From positions 1,506,590-1,570,589 of the forward strand of contig RPFO01000132.1 in the NCBI GenBank assembly GCA_009746045.1: 64,000 nucleotides of DNA. Direction: 5' to 3'. Below are positions 3,282 through 24,123 of this stretch, one piece after another; position 1 is the first letter of the stretch, and each line of letters starts with the position of its first letter. The position numbers and the translations under genes were made by a program. Under the pieces are notes generated by a model that saw nothing but the letters and a program-made list of their open reading frames with translations, searched no databases and was not told the origin of the DNA. This DNA is from Mesostigma viride (lineage: Eukaryota > Streptophyta > Mesostigmatophyceae > Mesostigmatales > Mesostigmataceae).

Positions 3282-3423
3282 GTTGGACGCAGTTGGCTTC
3301 AGCTGGGTGGCGGAGAAGCAGTGTGGCAGCACCTTCATGGTCGGCTTCCGCGAGCTGTGCGCGTTCAGGGACGCGCACGGCCACCTGCAGGTGCCCAAGG
3401 ATGAACCTCTCGCGCGCTGGGTG
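3282..3423 (+). CDS. HA-domain protein gene, internal exon
   Basis: The exon begins after CAG at 3279-3281 with one base that completes the Arg codon from exon 1130-1251. It then has exactly 47 codons and ends in phase 0 before GTACGT at 3424. The peptide closes the first HA repeat (Gly-Phe-Ser-Trp) and opens the next (Phe-Arg-Glu-Leu, His-Gly-His, Val-Pro-Lys, Leu-Ala-Arg-Trp-Val). The last residues need an x-x-Gln-Arg continuation, which is what the exon at 22260 provides. The in-phase joins on both sides and conserved repeat spacing are the main reasons to accept this exon. Confidence 0.8.
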
Positions 3424-4199: not shown

Positions 4200-4499
<300 letters not shown>

Positions 4500-4500
<1 letters not shown>

Positions 4501-5229
4501 AGATCACCAAGCTCCCAAGAAGACCAGCATTTGATTAATACAATAAGTGGAGCCCTTCCACAAATGCAGCAGTTACAGTGGCCTTCAGGTTACTGAGTCC
4601 GCACGCGGAATCCAGAAGCCTCCAGGGTGGGAGGGAGGGAAAAACAACAATTGCAGATCATTGCCAGCCTAGCTTGCGTAAGGCATGGTCCGCCGGCACA
4701 CCAGCTGACATCATCCTAAATGAATTAACACCGGCATGCATCACGCGCCGGCCTGAACAGTGCTGAAAACACCGCTACAAACAACGTGGCCACGCACCCC
4801 CAGGCTAGTGCGTTAACCGCACAGGTAGTCGTACAAGGTTCTCAAAACTGACAGACATAAATCTCGCCCATCGACCCCTTGGGCCAGTCCGAGTCCACTG
4901 TACAGTAATTATCACGACACACTATAACAATCAGTCCAAGATTATTGAAGCAACCAGCCGACCCTACAGGTCCCTAGCTAATCACAGCCGGTGCAAACAA
5001 TTACGAAGCTTTGCAAACAAGTCGTATAAAACCTTTTTCGGACCACTAATTAATAGCCACCGACCCTTATAAACAACGGGGTCATCGAAGGAAAATTCAC
5101 TCAATCATGAAACCCTTTGTACAGAACCAATTAGTCAGCCCATGTCGCAGACAGCCTTCGCCATGCAGGCCAAGGCATAGCGGCCCTATCTTTCCCGCAT
5201 GCGTTAGTTAAACCATATACAGAAAATCA
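4500..5229. repeat. Left flanking repeat (X-Y), copy of 20546-22105
   Basis: Block X (4500-4640) matches 20546-20655, and block Y (about 4648-5225) matches about 21507-22100 with scattered differences. About 850 bp present between X and Y on the right (about 20656-21506) are absent here. No protein is recognisable. The block abuts the 3' end of the PAT-like element, so the retrotransposon appears to sit between two copies of an older repeat. Confidence 0.8.
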
Positions 5230-5232
5230 ATT

Positions 5233-5367
5233 CTATTAACCGTGGAACTCCAGGGTAAACAGACTCTTTATTAAAACAACGAGTGGAGCACATACAAAAG
5301 GCAGGCCACATCCCAGCGGCCGATGCTCATGGGAACACTTATTGCTTGGCAAAGGCTAGCCTTACCC
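5233..5367 (-). repeat. PAT element split repeat B2 (3' terminus)
   Basis: This 135-bp block starts ctattaaccgtgg and ends ccttaccc. It is nearly identical to B1 at 5827-5961 and to 50841-50975. It forms the outer 3' boundary of the element. Confidence 0.85.
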
Positions 5368-5393
5368 CCAAAACACGCAGGGAGGGTGGGCGG

Positions 5394-5826
5394 GAAAAGA
5401 AAAGAGGCCGACCTTAGCTAGGTGGGTTTGTTTTTGGCTTTTTTGCATGTCATGCGGCCTTGGCCCGGACGGCATTTTTTTGCCACGCAAATGTTGCGTC
5501 TGAACAAATGACGCAATGTGGCGTTCTAATTGCCGGCAGCTTACGTAAGGCTACAGGGGCTATTAGGTCACATATTGCGTGAGAGAAAAAATCTAGATCT
5601 AGTTAATCACTACGCCATTAGCCAAGAAACCTAGACAGTGGCAGGTTTATTTCTCAACGGAGCTCCTGCCACCCGGCCAAGAAAAACTGGCCAAAGCTTT
5701 GGCCACGACCGATCCGGATCAGGCCGCACCGGGCTCGAAAGGTATGTCACGTGAACCCTATAACCTAGCTATAGCGGCTACCCTTCCATCTCACTATAAG
5801 GAAACTATGTTCAGAGAACCACGATT
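5394..5826 (-). repeat. PAT element split repeat A2
   Basis: This block of about 433 bp matches A1 at 20124-20545, from gaaaagaaaagaggccgacc through cagagaaccacgatt. It lies between B2 and B1, as the PAT arrangement requires. A partial copy is at 50976-51238. Confidence 0.85.
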
Positions 5827-5961
5827 CTATTAACCATGGAACTCCAGGGTAACCAGACTCTTTATTAAAACAATGAGTGGAGCACATACAAAAGGCAGGC
5901 CACATCCCGGCCGCCGATGCTCATGGGAACACTTATTGCTTGGCAAAGGCCAACCTTACCC
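5827..5961 (-). repeat. PAT element split repeat B1
   Basis: This 135-bp block matches B2 with a handful of substitutions. It joins directly to the region downstream of the recombinase stop codon. Confidence 0.85.
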
Positions 5962-6036
5962 TTATATGCCTCCCTGGCGATCCATGCCAGGGGCAAAGAA
6001 CCTAGCATAATAATGACAGAGAAATGAACAACAAAA

Positions 6037-7035
6037 CTAGGTGGAGGGCAATTTCAAAAAAGCCCGCCATGCCCGAGGGGGGCAGGCGGCCATGCTCCAA
6101 AGAAGAACCTCATGAAGCTCCACCTCCAAACTGCGGGGTATGCCCACATAATGGGCAAACGTGGAGCTGCTAAGCCGGCGCCCCCGGCCCTGGATGTCCC
6201 CCATGCTGCGACCCTCGATGAAATCATGAGTGGCACCCCCATGCCGCAGCCCGTGAATGGTGAAAATCTGGGCGACCCCCAAGGCCTGAGTCGCATCCTG
6301 CCAAAGGCGCCTGAATTGCGGGTAGGTGAAAGGGAACACGGCCTCCCAAGCGTGCTTACCCACGATGCAGTGACGGAGGATGGTTTCAGACATCACATCT
6401 TCTACCACCACCGACTGAGTCTTGCCCTTAGAGGTCTTGGTAGACCTCAACAGCAGGGCACCCCGCTGAGCCAGCCCAAGCCGAACGTTAGGCTGGAGGC
6501 GCACATGGCCAACACGGAGGTTCGGCGCCTCCGAGATTGGCAGGTAATGGCGGAACACGATGACCACCAGCAGGCCCGCAAGGCGCTGACCTTGAATGAC
6601 CATCGTGCTGGCAAGTGCAAATGCCGCCTCCCATGGAATCGGAGGAGGGGCGCAGGGGGGCACAAGTGTTTTCCACCCAGCGACGACGCCACGGGCCAAG
6701 TCCCACCGCTTCACCATACCGGTATAGTAAAGTAGCAACCCCATCAAGGCATTGACACACGTCTGGCGGCTGTATTCCCGAAAGTGAGCCCAGGCGACAT
6801 ACGCACAAAATGTCTCCTCAAGGGTGTCAGCTCGTGACGATGACCTGTCCGCCCGCCCGCCAGCCTCCCACCAAGTCATTAGGGAATCAAGGCCACGACG
6901 GTAGACCAACAAGGTAGCCGGCTTTACTTTCCCCTCTAGCAATGGAAGGTAGCTAACAGTTGCAGGGGGCCCCGGGTTAGGATGGATGCCTTCCGCGGTC
7001 AGGTCGCGCACCCAGCCTGCCAAGAAAGTCGCCAT
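6037..7035 (-). CDS. Tyrosine recombinase of PAT-like element
   Basis: The 332-residue protein is an integrase of the tyrosine recombinase family that would insert the circular cDNA of the element. The catalytic signature is complete: the first Arg in a Pro-Asn-Leu-Arg context (about residue 174), His-Gly-Leu-Arg-His about 85 residues later, and the nucleophile in Thr-Phe-Ala-His-Tyr-Val about 30 residues further on. The ATG follows the stop of the RNase H frame by one codon in the same frame, so readthrough or reinitiation are both possible. Residues 15-23 contain an Ile-His-Pro-Asn-Pro-Gly-Pro stretch resembling 2A ribosome-skipping motifs. No frame break is visible in this gene, unlike the rest of the element. 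Confidence 0.88.
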   Translation of the reverse strand: MATFLAGWVRDLTAEGIHPNPGPPATVSYLPLLEGKVKPATLLVYRRGLDSLMTWWEAGGRADRSSSRADTLEETFCAYVAWAHFREYSRQTCVNALMGLLLYYTGMVKRWDLARGVVAGWKTLVPPCAPPPIPWEAAFALASTMVIQGQRLAGLLVVIVFRHYLPISEAPNLRVGHVRLQPNVRLGLAQRGALLLRSTKTSKGKTQSVVVEDVMSETILRHCIVGKHAWEAVFPFTYPQFRRLWQDATQALGVAQIFTIHGLRHGGATHDFIEGRSMGDIQGRGRRLSSSTFAHYVGIPRSLEVELHEVLLWSMAACPPRAWRAFLKLPST

Positions 7036-7038
7036 GGA

Positions 7039-7425
7039 TTAGCCGCGAGAAACGCCATGGGCTGGTTGACGTGCACTCGGCGTCCACACCCACTGGGAAC
7101 GACTCCCAGTGGCGAGGGTCAGCGCGCACAAGCGGCGGCACTGCTTGTTGAGCTTGTGGGATGATGACCGCCCCTTAGCCAAGCAGCCCAACGTCGCGGT
7201 GGAGTCCACCAACCTCACCACCCGCTTGCCTCGGTTTGCCAGAGTGCGCGCACTCCTCTCCACGCCCTTCACTGCAGCCCGCACCTCCTTCTCGTTGATG
7301 TGCATCCCCGGATCCCGCCAACGACTCCTGACCCCAACCCGCCATTGCTGACTAGTGATTGCTTGTTGCGCCCGCACGCTCAGTGGCCTAGGGCCAGCGT
7401 AGGCCACCACGGTTGGTTTGAGCAA
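7039..7425 (-). pseudogene. PAT-like element RNase H domain, C-terminal part
   Basis: This frame carries the middle and end of a retroelement RNase H: His-Ile-Asn-Glu-Lys-Glu with catalytic Glu, then an Asp-Ser-Thr motif for the third acidic residue, Ala-Lys-Gly-Arg-Ser-Ser, and a terminal Trp-x-Pro-Ser-x-Arg-Gln-Pro-Ala. It is out of frame with the RT part by one indel near 7426-7434. That frame break is why I call this piece a pseudogene. The tyrosine recombinase follows immediately. Confidence 0.8.
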
Positions 7426-7431
7426 AGTCGG

Positions 7432-8277
7432 TTACCCCCGCACCTCACGTGCTCGCGCCAGCTCCATCACATCGCCCGGCTCCATGGTAGCGTACACGAC
7501 ACCTTGCCCGTAGGTGGACGCGTCAGATGCAACCACCTCACGTGTCAAAGGTGCGCTTCGGTCAACCCTTAGCATAGGAGCCAAGGCCAGGGCACACTCT
7601 TCACTCCTCCCGCACCCCGGCCCACAGCACCCAGGACCGCTGCCCCCACGTCCTTGCAGGCTGATGAATTTGAAACATTGCTGCCAGATGGACAAGCAGC
7701 TGCGGCTTAACATCTGCAGCCACAAGCACCGCCCCAAGATGGCAGCCAGCCCCTCGGCCGTAGCTCGGCCGCGAGTGAGTATAGCCTGCGTGTGGGCGAT
7801 CACAAGGTTGAGCTGCTTGACCGTTGGTTCCAGCGCGCCGTTCCGTCGGTGCACCACCCCCAGGGCTTCTAGCGCGTCCCCTTTCAGGCTGGCCATCTTA
7901 GTCTTCTCCTTAGACGGCATAAGGTTGCTAGGAAGGTAGCCTTCCTCAATAGCGCGCGTGCTAAGCTGGTTCACCGCCTCGCAGGTCCGCCCGTTGCTGG
8001 CCACCAAGTCATCGATGGTGATGGACAGCATGGGGGCAGGGGGGTTTTCCAGGTCAATCTGAAGCTCCTCGACGCGCTCCTCCTTGTACTCGATGACCAA
8101 GCGCAGCGGCTTGCCACACTCGTCGCGCACCAAGGTGAGCTCACCTGCGCTTGAGAGGTAGTTGACCTGGCGCCTCGGATCCAGGGCACTGCTCATGTAG
8201 AGCACCATCTCATGAATGGCCTCCCCCAGCGCCTCCGCATGGGAATGTCCCATGGCCAGCACCTTGAGCACGGGCCA
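7432..8277 (-). pseudogene. PAT-like element reverse transcriptase C-terminal half plus start of RNase H
   Basis: The frame opens with Leu-Ala-Met-Gly-His-Ser-His-Ala, the conserved retroelement block before the catalytic loop. The active site follows as Thr-Ile-Asp-Asp-Leu (the x-x-Asp-Asp box), then thumb-like sequence. It ends in Ala-Ser-Asp-Ala-Ser-Thr-Tyr-Gly, the start of RNase H. The N-terminal RT half is on the same strand at 18120-18605. The two halves were separated by the viral insertion. A frame break near 7432 separates it from the rest of RNase H. Confidence 0.82.
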
Positions 8278-8281
8278 CTAG

Positions 8282-8476
8282 GCTCCGCGAGGGCGACCCC
8301 CCGTGCCGGTTGACAGTTGGCAGCAGTGGGCAGCAGTGGGCAGGGGTGGCGGGCGTCAGCAAAAAGTGTGGTGCATTAGTGAGGCAGCTATGCCGTTGAA
8401 ACTGTCCAAGGACGACTCTATCGTGCGGTCCCGTAACTACTGCGGCATTGGCCGGGCATTACACGAGTGGAGTGGA
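8282..8476. other. Viral insert left edge, no gene seen
   Basis: This is about 195 bp between the RT break and the inverted repeat. I see no recognisable coding frame. It contains a short ggcagcagtgggcagcagtg duplication near 8323-8342. Confidence 0.4.
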
Positions 8477-8617
8477 ATATTTATCGGGTGGATGAAACGT
8501 CGTTTGAGGTTGTTTAACCGAACCGTCTTGGTAAGCGGCTTTCTGCGAACGTAGCCATTTCGTCTAACATTTTTCGAGCGTGGCGGTCGCCCACACCTGT
8601 CTTTGCTTTTTTGCAGG

Positions 8618-10717
8618 ATGTGGCTGACGGACACAGTCTTAGCCATTGTGGGAGAAACTCTCGACCTCGAAACTTCTTCTCGTCTCAGCACAGTGGACAA
8701 GCATCTTCAGTCGACACTGAGGCCTTCAATACAGGCTAAGCTTGCGTTTTATGACACTGTGTTGTCGGGGCGTGTGGAGGGTGTTTGGAGTTTTTTGAGC
8801 TCCATTGCGATAGAGAATAGCTTTTTTCAGCCGGCGGTGGTCTTCCGTTATGACTTCATTAACCCATAGTCCGCTGACCCATTTTGGGCATTTTCATACC
8901 CCTAAAAATGAAAAAAATCATAACTCACAGGCCACATCTCCAAATACCCTCAACCAAGATGCCAAACATATCTACGCTTCAAGGGCTTTCAGAATATGCA
9001 ATAATACCATGGCTTTATCAAAGCATTTGGATGACAGCGCCAGCCAAAGTTGGCCAAAAGACGATCTTTTTTCCCCAAGAAAAAGTGTACCTACCCCTAA
9101 CTTCCCAGGGAGGGAAGGGAACCTCAAAACCAACATTGGACAACTTAGTTGGATAGTCCAATGGTGGTTTCCTTGGGTCAGACCACCCGGATAACCCATT
9201 AGACCAACAAAACGTGGTCGTATATGTGTGTGGGTTAGGCGCGCGTAAACAGCCATCCATGACATGCAATACAAGAATGCATTATAGCAAGCTATAAAAG
9301 ACTGTCAAAGGTGCTGGAATACAAACATGCTGCATACCTGCACTAACGGAATGATGTGCTCCAAAGAAATGCCATAAACTGGGCACTTTCAGGGCTAATA
9401 CCATTCTCTACAGCAGATATGGAAGCTTGCTAAACAGTGCACTAATAAGATCGTCAAATATAATGCATGGAAGACATATTCCGCTGCAAACAACACGCAA
9501 ACACGTTGTCGTACATTGCTCGTTCATGTCCTGCACGGACTCCGCTGGCCGGGACCCTCATATCTCACACATACCGTTGCTCTATAGGATAAGGCCGCCA
9601 TAGCCTCATCCTGCATGCATCCTCCATGATTACCAGATTGATGTTCCGTTCAAAGATGACCTATAAACGCGTCCGCATTCCCAGCTAATGCTGCAGCGGA
9701 CATCCCGTACCAAACCTGGATGCTTGGGCTGGCGCAGACTGCCCGGCCATAAGGAGAAAATCGACATATGATAAGCGATGACTCATCTGGCACTGACGAC
9801 CAAGAAGCACTATTTTCCTACCTGTATTTTCCCAATCCTATAAATCTGGCCATGCCTAACCTACGAAAATCACGCATCGACATTCTGAGCAACATTCTGA
9901 ACCATTTCCGGCCGCGAGACGCAAAATTTCCATGATAACGGCACGATGGCAGCCATATCTCGTCACGCGCGCGCGCGAGCGAAAATTTCCCGCCAAAGTC
10001 ACGTGATCCTGTCTCAAGGCACGTTGTAATTACCATGCTATGGCGAATATTACCCCCAAACCTATGCATCACCTTCGTCCCTAAGTGTTCCCGGACCCAC
10101 CGGACAACTTGCATCCGTCACGGGTGGCGCGGCGCTCACGGCGCGGCGCGAGTTAGGACCGTTGGTCAAACTACCCGAAATTTCGGGTGGTTTACGGACT
10201 AAGGGTTAATGGCACCAGTGACATATCTACAACGACGTGGTGTTCTATGTACATGGACAGGGCAGAGAGGGACATGAATGCCGTTAGTGACAGCACTTCG
10301 CACACCCTGCTTACAAGGCTGCTAGACAAGCTAGCGTCATTTTCAGGTCTGTCAGGCCGTCTTGTGCTCATGGAAGGCCACGTGGAGGCTGTCCTAGAAG
10401 TAAGCAAGGTCTTTGGCGACACGCGTTCTCAGCTGGTGCGCCTGTACACAGACACGCCCAAGACCGTGTTTGGTTTTGTACGCCTTGCGCATACCCTGAT
10501 GATGCGTATCACGGATAACAAGAGCTTTCGTGAGCTAGCTTGCCTGGTTGGCCTTGCGATTGCACACAGCTTTGACGCTGCTCTTGACAACGAAGAGCGC
10601 AGGATAATAATGTGCCTTCATGTTGTCGGCTTGTTGACATGGCGAGCTCAGTACAAGGGGTCTTGGCTGGGCATGGCCTGCGACCAGATTTTTTTTACCA
10701 TCGCACAGGGGCGCTGA
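8618..10717 (+). pseudogene. Duplicated viral gene, left copy, split by TTAA element
   Basis: Two coding parts (8618-8862 and 10210-10717) together match the intact 250-residue protein encoded at 15887-16639 on the - strand, with about four amino-acid differences. The first ATG is at 8618. A GT..AG pair (about 8533-8616) just upstream looks like a 5' UTR intron but cannot join an open upstream exon. The split is at Asp-Phe-Ile-Asn, where a 1343-bp element with TTAA duplication is inserted, introducing an early stop. Function is unknown. The N-terminus has an F-box-like Leu/Val pattern. Confidence 0.85.
8863..10205. mobile_element. piggyBac-like non-autonomous TTAA element
   Basis: The element is 1343 bp and flanked by TTAA on both sides (8859-8862 and 10206-10209). 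It has imperfect terminal inverted repeats, CCCATAGTCCG on the left and CCCTTAGTCCG on the right. TTAA target duplication with CCY-type ends is typical of piggyBac-like transposons. No transposase domain is visible inside, so it would need help in trans. The intact right arm of the inverted duplication gives the empty site directly. A CG dinucleotide run at about 9966-9976 lies inside. Confidence 0.9.
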
Positions 10718-11055
10718 TCGACTACGTGTTTGCGCTGAAAGAAAACATCATCATGAACCTCGAGAAGCTGTACAAGAATTTTTTTGGCATTGTGCCGACG
10801 TTTGAGGTGTTTTGCCACATCTTGAACGAATGCACGCAAAACTATGAATGCCTGGTGATCGACCACACCAGCGGTTCTAACAAACTTGAGGACGTGATTT
10901 TCTGGTACAAGGGTGAGATGCGTCCGCCATTCAAGGTCGGGTCAAGCAAGTTTTGGAAATACGGGCACGCGCGTCACGATCCCAACAAACATGACTCAGA
11001 CAGTGACGACGACAGGAAACGCGTGTCCACTCGCGTCGTCAAACACGACAACTAG
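10711..11055 (+). pseudogene. A32-like genome-packaging ATPase, C-terminal fragment
   Basis: This 114-residue fragment starts at the inner edge of the left inverted arm and runs to a TAG stop. The sequence Asp-Tyr-Val-Phe-Ala-Leu-Lys-Glu-Asn, then a Phe-Pro-type helix, then Cys-Leu-Val-Ile-Asp-His-Thr and Asp-Val-Ile-Phe-Trp-Tyr-Lys, matches the pattern I know from the C-terminal part of NCLDV A32-family (FtsK/HerA-type) packaging ATPases. The Walker motifs would lie in the missing N-terminal part. An acidic Asp/Ser-rich tail ends the protein. The alternative is an unrelated viral protein. A profile search would settle it. Confidence 0.65.
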
Positions 11056-11267
11056 ACAGCAATTGCGAACTGTCCTGCCCGCGCTCAGGTCAAAACGCGG
11101 ACGGAGCACAGGATAAAGCTCTATTTACTTGCAAGATCTGCGTGAGTATGCTAAATTAATGTAAGAAACAATATTCTTACTTATTTCTTATTTAATATCG
11201 CAAAGTTGTTATAAATATGAAGAGGGCCAAGCTAGAGCGATCTCGAGAAAAGCGCAAACTAGAGCGA

Positions 11268-12647
11268 CCAGGTTGTGAAATACGTGCGTATTGTCAAAAT
11301 AAATACGGCAATACGCGTTTTTTGGGCCCCGACGTATTATACGCGTATTTGGTCCCGAATACGTGATTTGGACTTGGGCAATTTTCGAGGTTCGAGCCGG
11401 GGCAGTGCTTGGCGCGAGGCCAGCCGGAACGTGGCGCGGCGCCTACCTCCCCCAAGATCTTCTACTATGCAAACTAGGCTCGATTACTACGAACTAGGCT
11501 TTTCGTCAGTCCTGAGTCAAGTCACTCCAGTTCATAATGACTTGTGCAAGAATAACCTTACTGACTGACTGACATAATGACTTGGCAGTTGGCAAGCTAA
11601 CTGAAATTTCCATACACGGAGAGAGTGCCAGCAATATGAAAATGCCAGCTGTGTTGGGAACGTGTGGCACGTAATATAGCATGTATGATGAATATTGCAT
11701 GGCGGTGTGCCATCGGATTTTGTGCTAGTTGTCAAACGTGTTTTCGCAGCCATGCCACACAAAGTGCCGGAGCATAACTTTGTAGAAAAAAAGACCGTCG
11801 CGGTGAAGGATGCTCTGGGGAATACGGTTTCGCAGGTCAAGTTTAGCTGCTCATTTTGCGGCCACAATTTTACCAGTGGCGATGGCAAGCAGATCAGTGC
11901 GACCAGGATGCGCGCACATTTTGCGAGCATCACAGGGCAGGGCATAGACGCCTGCCCTGACGCAAAGATTGGGCAGAAACGGAAGCTAGAATTCCAGGAG
12001 TTGTGGGCAAGAAGGCCGGGCTGAAGGCGAAGAAGCAGCGGCACCTGAGCTTCAGGGCAGTGGCGGAGAGCGGCCAGGGCCTTGCTTCGGGGTCGGCCAT
12101 TGCAGGTGATCCTCGCCAGCAGACAATCACGAGGTTTGTGAACCCCACAAACGAAGAGGAGTGCCAGCTCCTGGTGGCCAACTTCTTTGTTGAGAACGCA
12201 ATTTCCTTTCACGCGGCTCAGAGCCGCTCTTTCAAGGCGATGATTTCCGGCCTGAGTCAGTACAAAGGGCTGATCACTGCTCCCAGTCGGTGGCTGCTGG
12301 CAGGCAAACTTCTTCAGAAGCCGAAAAGACAAGGCAATTAGTTATTCATTCATGACCCATTTTGATATAGGATGATCAGATTTGATAGCTCGTTGTCTCA
12401 TTCATGCATGGTAATGGTTGTCAGTGTTCTGACTTGACTGCACCTTGCCATGAGTGGTAACCATATTGCATAACTATACCCTAAAGCCTCAAACCCAAAA
12501 GGCCCATTCATAACCATGCTCTAAAGGCCGAATTGCACACTGTCGTATTTTGCCGTATTCAAGCCGACGTATTCTGCCGGGGTCTACGTATATACCCGTG
12601 TTTTGGAGGCCGACGTATTTGACGTACCGACGTATTTCACAACCTGG
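11268..12647 (+). mobile_element. hAT transposon (N-terminal transposase part only)
   Basis: The element is 1380 bp with perfect 18-bp terminal inverted repeats (CCAGGTTGTGAAATACGT). It is flanked by an exact 8-bp target duplication, TAGAGCGA (11260-11267 and 12648-12655). Eight-base duplications are the hallmark of the hAT superfamily. Both ends are full of CGTATT/AATACG subterminal motifs, as expected for transposase binding sites. It encodes a BED-type zinc finger but no catalytic core, so it is a deletion derivative. Confidence 0.95.
11752..12024 (+). pseudogene. hAT transposase N-terminus with BED zinc finger
   Basis: From the ATG at 11752 the frame encodes a BED-like finger: Cys-Ser-Phe-Cys, then Arg-Met-Arg-Ala-His-Phe, then Gly-x-Asp-Ala-Cys. 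These residues spaced like Cys-x2-Cys ... His ... Cys are the DNA-binding module of hAT transposases. A second frame, 12003-12341, continues with a Gln-Thr-Ile-Thr-Arg-Phe segment and a helix (Leu-Val-Ala-Asn-Phe-Phe) that look like the region just before the hAT core. A frame shift or unseen intron near 12010 separates the two. The RNase H-like core and dimerisation domain are absent. Confidence 0.75.
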
Positions 12648-13487
12648 TAGAGCGACAAGAAATTCCAACAGGGTGGTCGCTATCAAACGAAGGGAGAAAG
12701 TATCCGTTAAACTTCGTAGTTGAGCCAAGTTATTTTGAAGGTGGTCTAAAGAACGTGTTTGTGGAGTTTCTTGATGGCTATAAAACTCCACTGAGCATGG
12801 GAAATTTGCACCTGGGTCAACTTATACCTTCAAAGACAAAAGATGGCGCTTTGTATTATGAAAAATTTTACATAAACGCGTCGCCACACGCGCGTCGACC
12901 ATTCGCCTCAGAGGAAGAAAGTACGTCCGTTAAAGGGTTGGGAAAAGAGATGTTTCGTTTCGGCACGGAGCTCAACCGGCTATCTTTGTCAGACCCCGTG
13001 AACGGTAAGGTCAGACTTACCGCATCCGGAGGAAATCCATACCCAATTTTTCCTGGAACAGATGATGAGGCGTTAGCCCTAATACGCAAATATCCAGTCA
13101 CGAGGGAGGGTTGGGAACAAGAGATGGTGCCGCGCCTACCCCAGAATGACAACAGACGTTTTCGAACCGAGATGATGATGCTTGCAAGCAGCATAAATAA
13201 CAATCAGAGACTTGTAGACTACTACAAGACCCTGAGGATGGAGGTGTCTGATCATTCCAATGGCATGCAGGTGGAAATGGAGTCAACTCCCGACAAAATC
13301 ATCAGGGCGTGCACAGGCCACAGGTGCACAAACCAACACTGCGTCCGCCCCAGGGGCCACTGCGGGGTATGGAACTTTAGGAATAAGCGGTGGTGCGCAA
13401 ACCCGTTGCAACCTAGATGCATAGGATACTGCACGAGGCATCTGCGCAAATAAATGGCGCGATCCATGCATGCGTAAGAGGGAAAAT

Positions 13488-14081
13488 TTATGCAGACCGC
13501 TCAAAGCCTGTCCTCGATGCCCGCTTCCGCTCCCTGTCCTTCTCGCGAAGCGCCTCCAAAGCAACCGTGGACAGGGATGCCCTCCAATCCCGTTTGCGCT
13601 TGTTGTCCTTCGCGCGGCGTTCCTCGGGAGTTTTGCGGATGGCAGCCATTGCCAGCTCTGCCTCGACAAGCTTCGCCTGCGCGGTGTCAGCCTCGATAAA
13701 TTTCTCCTTTTCGCGGATGCGGGCATCGATCAAAAGGCGTTCTTCGCGCATTGATAACAATCTGCACGCCTCGGCCTTGTGCCAAATTTCCGCGTATGCG
13801 CGCACCATTTCCGGTGTCTTGAGGCAGGTAGCAGACAGGACCATTTTAGTGAAGGATCCGAGGTCGGGGAATTCCACGCCACCGAAAAAGAAGCTCGAGC
13901 TGAGGCGAGGTTCACGATTGGCAGCCGAACCGCCTGACACCTTGTGGTGGACTGGACACGGACAGGAGGTGCCAAAGCCTGGGGGCAGGACGTCGGGCGT
14001 TAAGGCATCCTCGCGAGTTTCACCGCTGGTCTGTCGGGCAGCCATCATTGAACTCTCGGCGTCTGCAGAAGGGTTTTCCAT
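13488..14081 (-). CDS. Viral unknown protein, Lys/Arg/Glu-rich coiled coil
   Basis: About 197 residues from the first in-frame ATG at 14081; the frame is open further upstream without an ATG. The middle has Ser-Ser-Ser-Phe-Phe-Phe-Gly-Gly-Val-Glu-Phe-Pro-Asp. The second half is a strongly charged helix rich in Glu, Arg, Lys and Ala, with heptad-like spacing and a bZIP-like Lys-Arg-Lys-Arg cluster near the end. It is convergent with the gene ending at 13453, with only about 35 bp between stops, consistent with compact viral packing. I do not recognise the family. Confidence 0.6.
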   Translation of the reverse strand: MENPSADAESSMMAARQTSGETREDALTPDVLPPGFGTSCPCPVHHKVSGGSAANREPRLSSSFFFGGVEFPDLGSFTKMVLSATCLKTPEMVRAYAEIWHKAEACRLLSMREERLLIDARIREKEKFIEADTAQAKLVEAELAMAAIRKTPEERRAKDNKRKRDWRASLSTVALEALREKDRERKRASRTGFERSA

Positions 14082-14529
14082 GGTTCGCAAATGACCCGAG
14101 TCTTTTGTACAGAGGACAGGCGCGTTGCGGGAGGCGGAGTCGTTGATGCATAGTGCACGTGTTCGCGCGACTTTTGTGATCCTGTCTTCTGTCCGCTTGA
14201 CGCGCACACGTGTCAGTAGAAATCGACCTGACAAACCGGGCGTATAGTGTCAGCACTAGAAAAAAGTGGCGTCGCTATTTTTCCGTTAGAAATCTTGAAC
14301 CGTCAAAGCGTCCCACCGGCCGGTGGCACACGTGTCAGTGGAAGCCGCAAAAGTGTGTGACACGCGGCAGAGCCTCGACGGGAGGCGGAATTTTTGCACC
14401 GTGAGGGGAACGGCGCTCATATATCGCGGGGAACAAACAGTTTATTGAAGTATTTAGGAGGTTCATCGTCAAGCGCCATCACAACTCGCCCGACCCAGCA
14501 AAACATCTATTAGACATCCTAACTTTTCC

Positions 14530-15284
14530 ATGTCAGGCATCACTGATACGCTAGAGATTGACGGTCGACCGTGTTCCTGGTCTAAAAACGAGCCTGAGTC
14601 TGTTGAACCACGCAAGAACGCGCGCGACAACGCCGACCACTCGAAGATGGCGCCAGCGGGGTCGTGCCCCGCAAACCAGGCGAACGCGTCGAGCCGCCCG
14701 CCCAAAATCTCGACCGTGCTATCCAAGCGCGAAGAGGCATTCCAGAGCCTGATTTTGCGCCCTCTTGTCTATGTCCCAGGGCACATAATCGACCATGTGT
14801 CATCCAACTTGTATGAAAATGCCAACGAGTTTTCGAGGGGAGACAATGCTGCTACCTTCCTTGTCTCATACGCGGTGTACGAGCAGTCGCCATTGATCAG
14901 ACGCATGTTGGTGCAGACGGCATGCCCTTTCATTGTCGAAAGACAGGTTTCCACGTGCATGAAGACCTTTACGTCAGGCGCATTTTGCAAACTGTACAGA
15001 GCCCTTTTTCCAGCGACTGCTTTGAGTTCATCGTTTTCAAGAACGGAGAGCTGTGCATGGCGGATCACGTCCAACAGACGGTGGATCACGTCCAACAGAC
15101 ACTGATCTCATCATTCGGCAGCATTCGTGACACGGCCGACGGGTACTACTGGAACAATTTCGATGAACAACGGCTGAACCGGGAGACTGACACGTATGAT
15201 GAAGCCTTAAGCAAGGCGGCCTCCGCCGTTCTCGCGTACTGCGAGTTGTACTTTCCGCCCTCGCACCGTGTCAGGTTGACGTAG
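14530..15284 (+). pseudogene. Viral unknown gene with probable single frameshift
   Basis: The ATG at 14530 opens a frame running to 15105. A second frame, 14922-15284, overlaps it. The first frame has sensible composition up to about 15005. The second becomes sensible from there (Cys-Phe-Glu-Phe-Ile-Val-Phe, then an acidic Tyr-Tyr-Trp-Asn-Asn-Phe segment to the stop). A one-base change in the T run at 15004-15008 would join them into one protein of about 250 residues. A 21-bp tandem duplication at about 15060-15101 repeats an Asp-His-Val-Gln-Gln-Thr unit. No family is recognised. Confidence 0.6.
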
Positions 15285-15295
15285 TTTTAACACTA

Positions 15296-15884
15296 CTACG
15301 ATGCAAACCGTAGCCCACCCATCCCATTTGTGATTTTGAGGATGTTGAATGACCGGGCATAAATGGTGATCACGCCCTTTGGCAGGTTGGTGCCTATACC
15401 CTTTAATACCAATTTGACCGAATCCAATCGTGAAAAGTTGATCGAACCTGTCGGCTTCCAATCCTCTGGCTTCAAGGCAAACGGGATGACGTACACGTGC
15501 CTGTCACTCGGAATGCGCGTGTGCGCCTCAAGAGGCAAGTAGTAGGAGAAGTAGATAGGGCCGCGGCCTTCGCCGAACATCTGCTGCGAGTTCAGTGTCA
15601 GGTTGGCCGTGGAAAACAGGTGTCCGTCAGGGTTGTTCTTGTTGGTAAAGTTCCATACAGATTGCGTCGGGTCCGGTGACATGGCTGGGTCTGTCAGACG
15701 TTCGTCGGCTTTGTAGAAGAAAATTAGCTCCTTGACAGGGTGGGAAAAGGGCAGCGTGATGGTTTCTAGATCCGTTTTCTCGACAAAGTGATCGTACTGC
15801 TGCGTGGCAGTGATGAGGTACTCGTGCGCGCTCGTCGCAAACTGCCGGCGTTCAAAGTCATCCAGGTACACGTAGCGAACCCGT
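15296..15884 (-). pseudogene. NCLDV major capsid protein, C-terminal half
   Basis: About 195 residues. The Tyr-Val-Tyr-Leu-Asp-Asp-Phe-Glu-Arg-Arg start followed by His-Glu-Tyr-Leu-Ile is the conserved opening of the second jelly-roll of nucleocytovirus capsid proteins. The end has Asn-Phe-Ser-Arg-Leu-Asp, Tyr-Ala-Arg-Ser-Phe-Asn-Ile-Leu-Lys-Ile and Gly-Met-Gly-Gly-Leu, the typical C-terminal signature. The first jelly-roll is missing: the fragment begins right at the inner edge of the right inverted arm. It is therefore truncated by the same junction as the packaging ATPase on the other side. The host range suggested by the context is algal. Confidence 0.92.
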
Positions 15885-16780
15885 GATCAGCGCTCCTGTG
15901 CGATGGTAAAAAAAATTTGGTCGCAGGCCATGCCCAGCCAAGACCCCTTGTACTGAGCTCGCCATGTCAACAAGCCGACAACATGAAGGCACATTATTAT
16001 CCTGCGCTCTTCGTTGTCAAGAGCAGCGTCAAAGCTGTGTGCAATCGCAAGGCCAACCAGGCAAGCTAGCTCACGAAAGCTCTTGTTATCCGTGATACGC
16101 ATCATCAGGGTATGCGCAAGGCGTACAAAACCAAACACGGTCTTGGGCGTGTCTGTGTACAGGCGCACCAGCTGAGAACGCGTGTCGCCAAAGACCTTGC
16201 TGGCTTCTAGGACAGCCTCCACGTGGCCTTCCATGAGCACAAGACGGCCTGACAGACCTGAAAATGACGCTAGCTTGTCTAGCAGCCTTGTAAGCAGGGT
16301 GTGCGAAGTGCTGTCACTGACGGCATTCATGTCCCTCTCTGCCCTGTCCATGTACATAGAACACCACGTCGTTGTAGATATGTCACGGGTGCCATTAATG
16401 AAGTCATAACGGAAGACCACCGCCGGCTGAAAAAAGCTATTCTCTATCGCAATGGAGCTCAAAAAACTCCAAACACCCTCCGCACGCCCTGACAACACAG
16501 TGTCATAAAACGCAAGCTTAGCCTGTATTGAAGGCCTCAGTGTCGACTGAAGATGCTTGTCCACTGTGCTGAGACGAGAAGAAGTTTCGAGGTCGAGAGT
16601 TTCTCCCACAATGGCTAAGACTGTGTCCGTCAGCCACATCCTGCAAAAAAGCAAAGACAGGTGTGGGCGACCGCCACGCTCGAAAAATGTTAGACGAAAT
16701 GGCTACGTTCGCAGAAAGCCGCTTACCAAGACGGTTCGGTTAAACAACCTCAAACGACGTTTCATCCACCCGATAAATAT
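15885..16780 (-). repeat. Right arm of 896-bp inverted duplication
   Basis: This is an uninterrupted reverse-complement copy of 8477-8862 + 10210-10719. The inner edge is GATCAGCGC (15885-15893) and the outer edge is cgataaatat (16771-16780). The two arms enclose about 5.2 kb that carries the ATPase and capsid fragments at its ends. Confidence 0.93.
15887..16639 (-). CDS. Viral unknown protein, 250 residues (intact right copy)
   Basis: From the ATG at 16639 the protein is intact to TGA at 15887. The N-terminal 40 residues (Trp-Leu-Thr-Asp-Thr-Val-Leu-Ala-Ile-Val, then Leu-Asp-Leu-Glu-Thr, Arg-Leu-Ser-x-Val-Asp) follow the spacing of an F-box. The rest is helical with no motif I know. F-box proteins occur in large DNA viruses, where they redirect host ubiquitin ligases, but here that is inference. 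The gene is duplicated in inverted orientation; the other copy is broken by a transposon. Confidence 0.75.
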   Translation of the reverse strand: MWLTDTVLAIVGETLDLETSSRLSTVDKHLQSTLRPSIQAKLAFYDTVLSGRAEGVWSFLSSIAIENSFFQPAVVFRYDFINGTRDISTTTWCSMYMDRAERDMNAVSDSTSHTLLTRLLDKLASFSGLSGRLVLMEGHVEAVLEASKVFGDTRSQLVRLYTDTPKTVFGFVRLAHTLMMRITDNKSFRELACLVGLAIAHSFDAALDNEERRIIMCLHVVGLLTWRAQYKGSWLGMACDQIFFTIAQER

Positions 16781-17426
16781 CGCGTCACACCTGTCCCTTG
16801 AAAACAAATCAACAAAGGCTGTTCCTCTATAATAACAGTATGATAACGTAAGGCCGCGTGAATTGTTACTCGTGACATGTGGACTACGAGAACTCTTCAC
16901 TGACCTCTGCCTCCCGGATGCGCGCGTTTCCATTCGAGCAGTCATAAAGCCTTGCAAAAACGTTTCTGCCCGGCGAATAATAAATTATCACTTGCGATAA
17001 ATATTGTTGCAGCCAGCCCGAATTCGCATGAAATCCTACACCTTGCCAACACGCAAGGAATTATAAAAGATGCGTCGATCCCTCGTTTTTCTAACGCAAG
17101 ACTCTTTGCCCTCCTTGCGTGTAAAAAGCAAGTGCCGCAGCACCGAAATACCCGAAGTTGCGGGCGGATCCACGGAACTACGGTTTGGCGCCGCGCCGGG
17201 TCGCACAAATATCCAGTGTGGCGTACGGATCCACATGACTTTGTTTGGCGCCGCGCCAGTTGCTCAGGCGCGCGTCTCTTCATTTGGCGCCAGGCGTTGC
17301 GTCTAAAAATGCAGACGACGCGAGCTTCACCACCAAAACTCGGTAACGCATCCCGCTCTCCGTCTGACGAAATGCCTTCATAGCGTGCAGCACCCAAAAT
17401 CCGATGACGATGTCCTGACCCCGCGA
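16781..17426. promoter_or_regulatory. Intergenic region upstream of primase with three TTTGGCGCC boxes
   Basis: No protein is supported here. TTTGGCGCC occurs at 17184-17192, 17244-17252 and 17283-17291. The first two lie inside a direct repeat of 60-bp period that also shares CGGATCCAC and GTTTGGCGCCGCGCC. The motif equals the E2F/DP consensus core used for S-phase genes, and it lies 130-240 bp upstream of a DNA-replication gene. A regulatory or origin role is inference. Confidence 0.5.
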
Positions 17427-18086
17427 ATGGACAAGGAAAAGTGGCAGCCGCCTGGATATTCGGCAGCGACCAAGTGGCTCGCAAATCGAAGACAATTTGT
17501 GGGGAACGACGAGGAGTATTCGCATCTTTTGCTGGATGGATTCAGGGGTGGAAAAGCGTATGTGGACCGCGAGGACATGTGGGATTTTTACAAAGCGGTT
17601 TGCGAGGATGGGACGCGAAACACCAGAAATTTTATTGTAGAGCAGAAACCTCTTAATTCACCGTTCCCAATGTTTTTCGACCTTGATTGCGTGGACGACA
17701 AGGATCTGGGTGGTGTCATCATTGAATCGTGGCTGCCTGCGATTCAGGCAGCACTCTCAGAGTGCCTTCCTGGGAAGGAAAACTCTCTCATGGTTGTGTG
17801 CCGGGCCCCGAAAAAGGTTACCAAGACAGGAAAAGTCAAGACTGGCTTTCACATTCATTTCCCATCTCTTCCCGTCGACACAGAGCGAGCCATGCTCTTG
17901 CGGTCTGTGGTGGTGGAGAAACTGGAACAGCAGTTCGGACCCAGGGACGAGTCAAACCCCTGGGCAACAGTTCTGGACCCTTCGGTGCTGCTCGACAACG
18001 GTATTCGCGTCCCAAACACGGGCAAGGGGTGGGAAGGCTGTCTCGCCAGGGTGTGCCAGAATTATTGTAAATTTTTCAAAGTCTGA
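17427..18086 (+). pseudogene. AEP-type primase domain of a D5-like viral primase-helicase, truncated
   Basis: About 219 residues from the ATG at 17427; the frame is open from about 17385. It has the hallmarks of archaeo-eukaryotic primases: Phe-Phe-Asp-Leu-Asp with the metal-binding Asp-x-Asp, a Lys-Thr-Gly-Phe-His-Ile-His-Phe motif with the catalytic His, and Asp-Asn-Gly-Ile-Arg-Val-Pro-Asn-Thr-Gly-Lys-Gly, the nucleotide-binding Arg/Lys segment. In NCLDVs this domain starts the D5 primase-helicase. The helicase part is missing because the viral insert ends 33 bp after the stop. It could instead belong to a smaller viral or Maverick primase. Confidence 0.75.
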
Positions 18087-18119
18087 AAGGGCAACAAGGG
18101 GTCGGTTTGCTAGGATCTA

Positions 18120-18605
18120 GCACACCCTCCGCCTCGGCCCTGCCAGACCTACGCTAGTCGACCACACACTAGGAAGCCCTTGGTAGTCCCACCACCACTC
18201 GGGCACCTCGATGGAGTAGTATGACACGAGGTCGCTCTTGGCGCAGTAGCACCAGCCCTTGATGTAGACCTCCACGAGGATGCCCAGGTGGGGGAGCAGG
18301 ATCTTGGGGGGGTCCACCCACAGCAGGTTGCCCAGCTTCCTGTTGACGATGAACCGTAGCTCACCCACCCCCTTGGCCACTCCAAAGCAGCCATCCACCC
18401 ACTTGGGCCGCCTCTCCCGGAACGTCACCATGCCCACGCCCGCTGCCCGGGTGATGAGCTTGCCCCATTCAGCCATGGAGCATCCCCGGCTGGGCTTGGG
18501 CACATTCCAATACCTTGCGCTCGCCGCGACCGCTGACTTGATGCAGTTCTCTTCGCTGGCATATATATCCCGCCAGCTCGGCCGCATAGCCAACAGGTCG
18601 AGCAC
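18120..18605 (-). pseudogene. PAT-like element reverse transcriptase, N-terminal half
   Basis: About 160 residues of RT finger and palm. The fragment reads Arg-Phe-Ile-Val-Asn-Arg, then Pro-Pro-Lys-Ile-Leu-Leu-Pro, then Lys-Ser-Asp-Leu-Val-Ser-Tyr-Tyr (first catalytic Asp region) and Val-Pro-Glu-Trp followed by Gly-Leu-Pro-Ser-Val. The protein stops at the viral junction after Arg-Arg-Arg-Val-Cys. The continuation, beginning Trp-Pro-Val-Leu-Lys-Val-Leu-Ala-Met-Gly, is at 8277 on the same strand. Confidence 0.78.
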
Positions 18606-19000
18606 CGTGCCTTACCCGCCACCTCCGCCTTCGGCAAACTCACCGCGTCCGCGCGCAGTTGTCCATACTTATTCTGCTTCCCATATATTGCATCAGCACC
18701 TTCTGCTCCTGGCCTGTCGCAACGCCCCCTACGCGGCGACTGTGCCAGGTGCAGTGCTTCTTGACCCTCGCTAGGGCCTCCTCCCTCCCCTGAGAGCACG
18801 CCCCTCTAGGACTAGGAGGAGGGTCTGCCCCCCCCCCCACAGCCAACTAAGCCAACGCACTACCTTGCATTGCAGCGTGTACTCGCGGTGGCGGCGCGTG
18901 GCACGTTGTCGCTGGCGTGCCGATCTCACCCTGCCCCACGCGGTGTACGCTGGCCTAAGTGGGTATGGCAGCGGGAAAAGGGAGCGGTCCCGCTGGGATT
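18606..19000 (-). other. PAT element, RT upstream region with frame breaks
   Basis: This joins the gag-like frames to the RT start. Short overlapping - strand frames exist (for example within 18425-18799) but none carries a clear domain. I take it as decayed RT N-terminal or linker sequence. Confidence 0.4.
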
Positions 19001-19582
19001 CTATTTCCCTACTTGTTGGGCCTTGCTGAGCTTGTCCAAGAGGATCGCAGTTTGGAGAGCTGCCTTGACAGCCGGGGTGGCTGATAGTGCAGCCTCCTCC
19101 CCCACTGGCAGGAGGTGGCTGGCCACCTTCCACCCCCCCCGTCCTTGCCCCTCCACCTGCAGCAAGGCCTCCACCACCCTCATTAGGTACTCCATGCCCA
19201 CAAGCTCCCCGGCTGCTGAGCCCAGCTCCTTGAGAAGGATGTCCGTGGCCAATGCAATGTTCATGACAATTTTCCTGTTCTCCATGTTCCGCCAACTTCC
19301 AGGCTTGACTGTCATGACCCACGACCGGATTCCCATCCCATTGTCGCTAGCGTCCTCCAACACCCCCGGCAGCACCCACTCCAAAATCCGATATTTCACG
19401 CTCTTGGCTCGGCTCGGCAGCGCCACCCCTTTCGAGGCCTTGAAGTGGCTTCCCGCCCCCTCCATTCCTCCCAGCGCTGCCTTCAAATCTTGCATGAATT
19501 TCTCGGCTGCGACCTCCCCCTCCTCGTCCTCGTCGTCGTCCTGAATTTTGGTTACCGGAGGTGCCCCAACGAATGTCGCCAA
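19001..19582 (-). pseudogene. PAT-like element gag-like ORF, second part
   Basis: The 193-residue frame begins with an acidic Asp/Glu run and continues as helical sequence (Lys-Phe-Met-Gln-Asp-Leu, Val-Lys-Tyr-Arg-Ile-Leu, Ala-Leu-Leu-Gln-Val). It overlaps the upstream frame by 31 bp in another phase, so the two probably form one gag-like protein after a frameshift or decay. The assignment rests on position (5' of RT) and composition only. Confidence 0.5.
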
Positions 19583-20205
19583 CCTCGCTCTCGTTTCCTT
19601 TCCGACAGCCCCCCCACCTGCCGAACTTTTGGCCGTGCCTTCGGCTCGGCCATTTTTCGTTGCGCAGGTGTCGTTGGTGGCAGCGCCGCCGCCTCCTCGT
19701 CCGCCGCGAGATCTGCCACAGCCAGCAGTTTTGTCACCAACGCTTTGTTTGGGTCACGTGCGTCCAACACGTCGGCAATGTCAACGTGATCGGCCAGCAA
19801 CTGCACGACAGACTTCAGCTGGCTCGAGCTCCACGAGCTGGCGTCCGTCACCCAGTCATCGGCACCGAAGACCTGCTCGACTGCCCCCACAGCCTCTGCG
19901 GGGCTGGTGCACTTGACGAGCAGAGTGGCGAGCTGTTTCTTTTTGGCGCATGACTGGCGGCAGCAGCCCGCGGTGTGGGCGTCTCGTCCTCCCCACGCGC
20001 TGCCTGCCTTGCTGTAGCCTTGCGCCCCTTCGGCATTGCTGCTCAGGGCCCAAAATGGCTCCGACAGTAAAGGTTCGTCAAACCAGAGGTTCGTTTCCCC
20101 TGGCTTGCTGTCGCCGCCCTTGTGAAAAGAAAAGAGGCCGACCTTAGCTAGGTGGGTTTGTTTTTTTCCTTCGTGCGTGTCATGCGGCCTTGGCCTGGAC
20201 GGCAT
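19552..20205 (-). pseudogene. PAT-like element gag-like ORF, first part
   Basis: The 217-residue frame has its ATG inside the A1 repeat, so its first 30 residues are repeat-encoded; a variant is partly preserved at 50879-51124. It has a Cys-Cys-Arg-Gln-Ser-Cys patch around residue 80 and helical sequence after that, but no standard zinc knuckle. Gag identity is inferred from its place as the first ORF of the element. Confidence 0.5.
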
Positions 20206-20545
20206 TTTTTGCCACGCAAATGTTGCGTCTGAACAAATGACGCAATGTGGCGTTCTAATTGCTTACGTAAGGCTGCCGGGGCTATTAGGTCACATATTGT
20301 GTGAGAGAAAGAATCTAGATCTAGTTAATCACTACGCCATTCACAAAGCAACCTAGACAGTGGCAGGTTTATATCTCAACGGAGCTCCTGCCACCTGGCC
20401 AAGAAAAACTGGCCAAAGCTTTGGCCACGGCCGATCCGGATCAGGCCGCACCGGGCTCGAAAGGTATGTCACGTGAACCCAATAACCTAGCTATAGCGGC
20501 TACCCTTCCATCTCACTATGAAACTATGTTCAGAGAACCACGATT
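20124..20545 (-). repeat. PAT element split repeat A1 (5' terminus)
   Basis: It matches A2 (5394-5826), ending in cagagaaccacgatt, and forms the 5' boundary on the - strand. It contains the gag start codon. Confidence 0.85.
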
Positions 20546-22105: not shown

Positions 22106-22259
22106 CGACTACTTATGTGACGCGCGAGGCGCCCATTTCCCTGAAGACCACGATGCAAGTTGCAATTTTTGGTGTAATTAGTGTGTTTTCTGTGAGAGGG
22201 GTGGTCTAATTACCCAACTACCGTTTTGTTCGCATGCTCTTTGCTCACCACGCATGCAG

Positions 22260-22352
22260 GATGCGCAACGCAAAGCGCATCAGAAGGGCGCTCTCAGCGA
22301 GAAAAGGGTGGCCTATCTGGAGGGAATCGGCTTTAAGTGGCAGGACGAATGA
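22260..22352 (+). CDS. HA-domain protein gene, last exon
   Basis: The exon follows TGCAG (ends 22259) in phase 0. It has thirty codons plus TGA. The peptide starts Asp-Ala-Gln-Arg-Lys and has Gly-Ala-Leu-Ser-Glu-Lys-Arg and Leu-x-x-Ile-Gly-Phe-Lys-Trp, the second half of an HA repeat. It completes the repeat left open by exon 3282-3423, so I assign both to one gene across the 18.8-kb intron. A separate paralog gene is the alternative, but phase and motif fit argue against it. Confidence 0.78.
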   Translation, partial: DAQRKAHQKGALSEKRVAYLEGIGFKWQDE

Positions 22353-23332: not shown

Positions 23333-24109
23333 TGTAACAAGCAAAAATGACTTTGTTGTTACATCCTTTGTTTTGTGAATGTTTGGCTTTTATTCGAGGA
23401 CTTTTGGATCAGTATTGAGAAAGTTATGAGGTTTCTAAGACGACGGTACTTGGAGCTGATACTTTGTCAGCCAACTGATAAGAACCCTCATTGGTCGTGG
23501 CCTGATCCACGTGGGGTTGTAGTTTGTTGGCTGATACTACTGATAGGAGCCCTCATTGGTCGTGGCCTGATCCACGTGGGGTTGTAGTTTGTTAGTTGGT
23601 ACTATTGAGTCTTAAATGCTCCTTTGGGACTTCAGTGCTCACGACATATTTAGGATCTCCTGGAAAGATTCTGCCAGGCTGTGTGTGGTGTTGTTCTGTT
23701 TTGTGTGACTAGGATGGATACGAAGATCTTGTATAGGATTCCATGGTTCTGATTGGTTCTCTTCAGGCTAAGGTTGGAGCAAGCTCGACAAGCACGTCGA
23801 TATCAAGGACGTGGGGTCGCCATTGTTGCTACGTTGGTTTTGATTCACCATGGTATAATAAAGCTTGGCTTTGTTGTCCATCATAAGAGCCCCTTGGCTA
23901 TAGACGTCCTTCAGTTCCACAGAGGTCGTCTATACACGAGCTTGTCTTTGTGTCTACAAGGGGTTGTGATTCCCTAAATCACGTGCTGTGGAATTTCCAT
24001 CTCAACGTTGCTCGGATACTTGAAGTTCTGCGACTCAGAAAGCAACCCAGGTAAAAGATCTTTCATATTGGACTGTGGATGATGTTGATGATCATTTTTA
24101 GTCGTTACA
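23333..24109 (+). repeat. gypsy-1 5' LTR
   Basis: 777 bp, TGTAAC...GTTACA ends. It contains a 65-bp tandem duplication (about 23465-23595), each unit carrying a CCACGTGG G-box (23507-23514 and 23572-23579). A TATAATAAA box lies at about 23854-23862. The promoter layout is inferred from motif order. Confidence 0.93.
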
Positions 24110-24110
24110 T

Positions 24111-24123
24111 TGGTATCGGAGGA
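24111..24123 (+). other. gypsy-1 primer-binding site
   Basis: TGGTATCGGAGGA starts two bases after the LTR. It resembles the TGGTATC-AGAG sequence complementary to the 3' end of initiator tRNA-Met, with one mismatch. Confidence 0.75.

Follow-up and report, generated by a model that had tools for sequence, protein, structure and literature searches.

Introduction

For phaeoviruses and punuiviruses there are published accounts of how giant viruses become joined to the chromosomes of their hosts (PMC12993054, PMC13236599). In Chlamydomonas, punuiviruses (Imitervirales) are integrated giant viruses whose published descriptions give them inverted terminal repeats, target-site duplications and a DDE/D-type enzyme (PMC13236599, PMC12993054), traits that recur in the giant virus of another green alga, Mesostigma viride, which is our subject here. 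We analysed a 64,000-nucleotide window of its genome (C1956:1506590-1570589; positions are those of the window unless a contig is named), in which a 9843-bp element built of giant-virus DNA splits the reverse transcriptase (RT) gene of a retrotransposon. We consider it probable that a multi-copy nucleocytovirus family with defined ends inserts into host DNA through a transposase-like reaction that staggers its cuts by 2 bp, and that an internally deleted form of it hit this RT gene. The likeness to punuiviruses has limits: these are described with a putative integrase related to retroviral integrases and with large terminal repeats, whereas the Mesostigma element has short imperfect repeats with CTAG, a 2-bp duplication, miniature copies and an IS630/Tc1-type protein as candidate enzyme.

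Other described systems resemble this locus in part. Phaeovirus elements of Ectocarpus likewise have defined virus-host junctions at dinucleotides, but there a tyrosine recombinase acts at CC, whereas the Mesostigma element has no fixed dinucleotide and its duplication fits a staggered cut (PMC13236599). Virophage EMALE03 lies inside Ngaro4 of Cafeteria burkhardae, and so is likewise a virus within a tyrosine-recombinase retrotransposon; the Mesostigma insert, however, comes from a giant virus, splits the RT gene and has a known empty site (PMC8547959). Teratorn, the piggyBac-herpesvirus fusion of medaka, is also a large DNA virus moving as a DNA transposon, with a herpesvirus and piggyBac in place of a nucleocytovirus and an IS630-type protein (PMC5601938, PMC10175614). 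In the green alga Cymbomonas, home to the giant virus CtGEV and to polinton-like viruses, more than 1,500 capsid genes are reported and viruses and retroelements interrupt each other. The polinton-like viruses (15-30 kb) encode a tyrosine recombinase or a DDE-type transposase; it is for them that the DDE-type gene is reported, and the passages of that account on the giant virus describe neither target duplication nor miniatures (PMC10675990). In Euglena and Amoebidium, too, giant endogenous viral elements occur as many degraded copies with transposable elements and recombinases, and the term target site duplication is absent from the main text of either account (PMC12455990, PMC11244446). By mechanism, the closest systems are the punuiviruses of Chlamydomonas and Teratorn. 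Our searches of open-access papers turned up no account of giant viruses endogenous to Mesostigma, and the enzyme of IS630 type, the CTAG ends and the miniature copies appear to be new.

The insertion and its empty site

The window holds, one inside the other, a host gene with an HA (helicase-associated) domain, its intron, a DIRS-order retrotransposon of PAT/Ngaro type, the virus and two DNA transposons (Table 1). An earlier note on this DNA had recognised three nested levels and an origin of the insert in nucleocytoplasmic large DNA viruses (NCLDV), and profile matches, homology and empty sites bear it out on both counts. An unbroken copy of the retrotransposon, which it had suggested looking for, also exists. 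When 378 bp of the second RT half were searched against the genome (a 439.9-Mb assembly of 2243 contigs, as in all our genome searches), 40 copies were scored of 545 candidates and six loci were cut out, one of them the window; all five others read unbroken through the site (GGGCCACACC; GGGCCACACCYTCC). In the window the junctions read GGGCCA/CTAGG...GATCTAG/CACACC. Set against the unbroken site, they define the insert as 8278-18120 and its target, CA, as duplicated, with CTAG part of the insert. These exact ends, the duplication and the empty site are direct observations. Duplications of 4 bp (CTAG), 3 bp (CAC) or TA were considered and ruled out by the DNA of the empty sites together with the register control described below, leaving the 2-bp CA. 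CACTA-type ends were rejected by eye, as the right end does not read TAGTG.

The retrotransposon, the PAT-like element of the earlier note, is read from its split direct repeats, A1-[open reading frames]-B1A2B2, and from RT, RNase H and tyrosine recombinase on a single strand. A1 (20124-20545) differs from A2 (5394-5826) at 19 of 422 positions, and B1 (5815-5961) from B2 (5221-5367) at 11 of 147. The RT, which has no Pfam match of its own, was identified by homology to a Mesostigma RT protein, P0002, and the recombinase by its match to P0001, a Mesostigma viride gene model (90% across 75% of the query). The split of the RT by about 9.8 kb is exact: half one ends at 18123 and half two starts at 8277, corresponding to consecutive P0002 residues, 279 V and 280 W. 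The cysteine with which half one had seemed to end (RRVC) is a junction artefact, its codon borrowing the last base of the insert; the next residue of the retrotransposon is tryptophan. Two related repeats, at 4497-5226 and 20543-22110, one with a 0.8-kb deletion, flank the retrotransposon on both sides, and it may have integrated into a kin element. A terminal fragment of the same retrotransposon lies at 50839-51238 (97.5%).

Around this, the two host exons that had been called phase-matched, 3282-3423 and 22260-22352, match PF03457 at 1.1e-16 once joined; GT directly follows the first, AG directly precedes the second, and the intron between them measures 18.8 kb.

Recurrent ends and two-ended elements

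Both borders of the insert recur across the genome. The end sequences, CTAGGCTCCGCG... and ...GGTTTGCTAGGATCTAG, are imperfect inverted repeats, which we call the left (L) and right (R) ends. The L end has 28 genome matches, 13 of which, the window included, start at its first base; one starts from base 4 (C487, with the flank seen on C1522), one is a secondary piece (C1468) and 13 are an internal 66-bp stretch and not ends. We read 20 of the 28 loci, the remaining eight all being internal 66-bp matches, and among these 20 the L end borders 11 distinct outer flanks. On five contigs (C1835, C1522, C487, C1496 and C1724) it is contiguous with one and the same 1.68-kb flank (99.8-100%), and the outer flanks beyond the L end differ between C1835, C1522/C487 and C1724/C1496. 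Among the R-end matches, that on C2156 keeps its last 17 bases poorly, with 7 mismatches when aligned ungapped.

Six elements carry both ends: the window copy of 9843 bp and others of 433 bp (C1591), 161 bp (C113), 107 bp (C1106), 1437 bp (C1813) and 171 bp (C2067). Five of the six are flanked by a 2-bp duplication: CA in the window, TG on C1591, CT on C113, GG on C1813 and GT on C2067. The chance of this is 5.4e-6, assuming equal base frequencies. In a register control, where the borders were shifted by up to 3 bases each way (7x7 settings), 47 of the 48 other settings gave duplications in 0-3 of the six; the one exception gave six of six, trivially, from the TA inside CTAG, and the empty sites exclude a TA reading for the window.

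The ends also occur in palindromic form. C1724 has an exact 2072-bp palindrome (C1724:2116796-2118867) that carries an R end at either side, and 52 bp separate it from the L end. On C1496 an R end stands at the same 52-bp distance from the L end, and another, facing outward, is 2.07 kb off. C1597 carries a version of the palindrome about 89% alike, whose far end we looked for in the C1597 locus sequence and did not find. The 52-bp joint may, at a guess, be a circle or concatemer junction of the replicating virus.

A reduced and rearranged virus

The capsid and primase pieces that the earlier note had named in the insert are recognised by profiles, the first as a C-terminal piece of PF04451 (6.5e-35), the second as AEP_C962R (6.4e-16). 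Its packaging ATPase stands less firmly: the longer counterpart on C1724 matches Pox_A32 weakly (1.3e-4; 21.9 bits against a cut-off of 22.8) across residues 47-186 of 291, and no scanned window frame matched; only roughly the final 112 residues are retained in the window, outside most of that match. As to the origin of these pieces, the capsid matches outside Mesostigma that score best among those listed carry the same capsid domains (in the protein database 3586 of 3842 candidate proteins matched, with 120 listed). The retrotransposon and capsid proteins of the window are closest to Mesostigma viride gene models (Mesvir1), which for the capsid make up the five best among the matches listed. 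Scans of IMG/VR with the capsid and with the DDE protein introduced below returned no relative, and PHROGs, as well as solved structures for the primase and the DDE protein, returned nothing useful.

The alignment with C1724 shows the 9.8 kb to be a rearranged remnant with two later DNA transposons in it instead of one contiguous stretch of virus; the transposons, a 0.9-kb inverted duplication and the defined ends had been overlooked in the earlier note. Besides the L end (Table 1), window 8477-8862 plus 10206-10715 corresponds to C1724:2072899-2072007, inverted (95%), 10717-15881 to 2017372-2021061 (97%, excluding 11081-11183 and the hAT-like element), 15889-18012 to 2072007-2074256 (94-99%), and 18017-18120, at 83% and with one gap of 14 bases, to an R end, either that at 2116912-2116796 or that at 2118751-2118867. 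More than 90 kb of C1724, between 2017 and 2117 kb, is absent, and one 0.9-kb piece is doubled and inverted. Only 19 bp separate the L end from the viral arm, and 4 bp the R end from primase DNA; minus the two later transposons the insert measures 7108 bp. The 271-residue frame of the inverted arms had no relative at E <= 0.001 among 1967 candidates. The divergence of the retrotransposon repeats (4.5-7.5%), set against that of the viral arms (0.9%), offers a relative clock, by which the inverted duplication would be younger than the arrival of the retrotransposon, unless conversion kept the arms alike.

Both nested transposons have known sites on C1724. The one at 8863-10205 has the TTAA duplication and CCC... 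termini of the piggyBac superfamily, and its site on C1724 is a single TTAA; a second copy (89%) lies at C1724:2120561-2121839, 1.7 kb beyond the outermost R end. The other has a hAT-like 8-bp duplication, and the profile scan of window frames returned no hAT transposase domain. Elsewhere in the window are a 24-bp satellite (1-1049; 43 copies, 97% matches) and a Ty3-type long terminal repeat element (23474-34970) with gag, RT/RNase H and integrase, and a doubled 65-bp repeat near each end.

Table 1. Features of the window, with strand and the basis of each assignment.
Feature	Position	Strand	Basis
Whole inserted element, CTAG...CTAG, 9843 bp	8278..18120		Recurrent ends and empty sites
Target-site duplication CA, left copy	8276..8277	+	Empty-site comparison
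Target-site duplication CA, right copy	18121..18122	+	Empty-site comparison
Left (L) end	8278..8457	+	97% to C1724:2116743-2116564; recurs genome-wide with identical first base
Right (R) end	18017..18120	+	16/16 genome matches (window included) extend to identical last base
Inverted duplication, left arm, interrupted by piggyBac-like element	8477..10719	+	Arm comparison, C1724 alignment
piggyBac-like non-autonomous DNA transposon	8863..10205		TTAA duplication, CCCWTAGTCCG termini; transposase looked for only among listed window frames
Likely packaging-ATPase (A32-like) gene, 3' end	10717..11055	+	Via C1724:2016835-2017707; weak, below cut-off
hAT-like DNA transposon	11268..12647		8-bp duplication TAGAGCGA, terminal inverted repeat CCAGGTTGTGAAATACG; empty site on C1724
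Viral stretch, frames 12648-13453 (+), 14246-13488 (-), 14458-15105 (+)	12648..15295		97% to C1724:2017813-2021061; without notable Pfam match
Major capsid protein, C-terminal 195 residues, truncated at arm boundary	15296..15883	-	98% to 458-residue C1724 capsid frame
Inverted duplication, right arm, bearing 271-residue frame (15887-16702)	15885..16780	-	Arms differ at 8/900 bases
Primase AEP domain piece (C962R family), truncated near R end	17307..18083	+	Profile match, C1724 alignment
DIRS-order retrotransposon (PAT/Ngaro type)	5221..20545	-	Split direct repeats A1-[open reading frames]-B1A2B2
RT first half	18123..18608	-	81% to P0002 residues 118-279
RT second half and RNase H start	7432..8277	-	70% to P0002 residues 280-560
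RNase H part	7039..7431	-	Frame continues past in-frame TAA
Tyrosine recombinase	6037..7038	-	PF00589 0.012 (below cut-off); 91% to P0001, itself PF00589-bearing
HA-domain host gene, exon upstream of intron	3282..3423	+	Frame begins at 3283; PF03457 once joined with second exon
HA-domain host gene, following exon, in phase, stop-terminated	22260..22352	+	PF03457 once joined with first exon

The endogenous virus on C1724 and a candidate integrase

Of 102 frames of at least 230 residues in fifteen C1724 stretches, 38 were scanned at E <= 0.001. They include three capsid proteins, VLTF3 (3e-48), primase AEP and UL52, and DDE_3, besides matches to DUF5906, KilA-N, class V aminotransferase and DUF5764, and to OTU and Rab11-FIP3 below cut-off. 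A double-jelly-roll major capsid protein (by sequence family) with VLTF3 and an AEP primase is what places this virus among Nucleocytoviricota. No DNA polymerase B turned up among these 38 frames, with no search aimed at it, and no retroviral-type integrase was among them; ten frames, at 1.99-2.00 and 2.084-2.114 Mb, had no family match, and part of the stretch may be non-viral.

Copies of this kind abound. The capsid fragment has at least 150 genome matches, the number scored among 562 candidates; many fall in open frames of at least 450 residues, some contigs have several, and many on short contigs are near-identical. Judged from these matches, the endogenous giant-virus load of the genome appears very large.

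A 1322-residue frame (C1724:2005324-2009289) matches DDE_3 (PF13358) at 3.6e-15 and has the features of a DDE transposase of the IS630/Tc1/mariner family; it lies on C1724 and is absent from the window. Its residues D375, D920 and E997, picked by eye, sit in what we take to be the IS630/Tc1 motifs. Enzymes of this type produce 2-bp duplications, which fits the elements here. A genome search with the protein, in which 35 of 302 candidates were scored, gave 74 matches spread over 35 loci. Measured against 96 capsid places, condensed from the 150 scored capsid matches, 17 of these loci lie no more than 40 kb (11-37 kb) from one, where about 0.02 would be expected for each. Four of the six best DDE contigs (C487, C1724, C36 and C1835) also carry the L end. 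On C36 and C432, which are rearranged relative to C1724, the DDE gene directly adjoins part of the L-end region; on C1724 it is about 107 kb from the L end. From this co-residence we infer a function: the protein is a candidate integrase.

How the insert may have arisen

As we picture it, a nucleocytovirus family with many copies in the Mesostigma genome would bear defined ends, at which a transposase-like reaction, cutting with a 2-bp stagger, would join it to host DNA. An internally deleted, inverted-duplicated form (7108 bp) would have entered a CA dinucleotide in the RT gene of the retrotransposon in the HA-gene intron, and the hAT-like and piggyBac-like elements would have hopped into this viral form afterwards. 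In this proposal the ends are presumably the virus's own, and the internal deletion would have preceded insertion.

Several observations weigh against the proposal. No full-length virus with both ends and a duplication was found on the contigs read; the two ends occur together only in the window copy and in five small elements (107-1437 bp), one of which, on C1106, has no 2-bp match (CA/AA). On C1724, C1496 and C1597 the L end faces the shared 52-bp spacer and R-end sequence rather than plain host DNA, an arrangement unexpected under a simple model; C1724 and C1496 have different outermost R flanks, so it is the R end, not the L end, that borders other DNA there. In the 1.68 kb beside the L end there is no viral gene that we recognise, and none of the seven frames scanned at C1724 2.084-2.114 Mb had a family match, so contiguity is what ties the L end to the virus core. 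As for the enzyme, its match to the IS630 model NF033545 (1.2e-18) reaches 67.6 bits against a curated cut-off of 100 and thus lies below it; for 18 of the 35 DDE loci no capsid match is listed within 40 kb; and IS630/Tc1 elements normally duplicate TA, whereas the duplications here are CA, TG, CT, GG and GT.

Some of these same facts would suit an ordinary IS630/Tc1-type DNA transposon that owns the ends and carries viral DNA as cargo, the virus being passenger and not driver: small same-ended elements with little viral DNA exist, slightly more than half the DDE loci lack a listed capsid match nearby, and the frames scanned near the L end on C1724 contain no recognised viral gene. We think this unlikely, given that the L end is fused to one common flank on five contigs, that the DDE gene keeps company with a capsid match at the other 17 loci, and that C1724 alone holds the DDE gene, three capsid genes, VLTF3, primase and both end types. 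An ordinary-size transposon with these ends and the DDE gene only was not among the loci read, with no dedicated search made. More probable than such cargo, though still short of our favour, is a variant compatible with insertion by the virus's own ends, in which a larger virus went in the same way and lost its interior later, in place. Endogenous viruses commonly lose sequence after insertion, a later deletion would leave ends and duplication intact, and the miniatures too could be deletion products; yet the R-R palindrome, and the miniatures (107-433 bp) whose ends are intact and whose sites differ, resemble mobile defective forms.

The insert is neither an assembly join nor a random capture. 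The earlier note had spoken of capture, and NCLDV DNA does lie inside a retrotransposon, but recurrent ends and a 2-bp target duplication are not those of a passive piece. Broken viral DNA patched by end joining into a double-strand break of the retrotransposon could account for an insert that is rearranged and internally deleted; it is strongly disfavoured, and we hold it very improbable, as both edges coincide to the base with the recurrent ends, and comparison with the empty site reveals the 2-bp duplication. Least probable of all is an assembly chimera. Repeats flank both sides, but an artefactual join would not yield a 2-bp target duplication at recurrent ends, and the nested hAT-like and piggyBac-like elements with exact duplications argue for residence in the nucleus. 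A published assembly of strain NIES-296, which may or may not be the one analysed, is described as 113x PacBio in 2363 scaffolds (PMC6947507).

A virus that may spread as a transposon

Compared with the described systems, the Mesostigma virus appears to work like a DNA transposon, with a target duplication as in punuiviruses; enzyme type, end sequence and miniatures are what differ. A bolder version, to which we give roughly even chances, perhaps slightly better, is that an IS630/Tc1-type transposase serves an entire giant-virus family as integrase and that this family has spread through the streptophyte alga as a DNA transposon, with palindromic mini-forms and miniatures like miniature inverted-repeat transposable elements (MITEs) moving on viral ends alone, and that the window shows one form landed in another selfish element. 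A single genome contains junctions, empty site, miniatures and candidate enzyme, which makes the reaction directly testable. Our observations suggest that viruses of this family may move about the genome as DNA transposons do, and that giant viruses can give rise to families of MITE-like elements in an early branch of the line leading to land plants.

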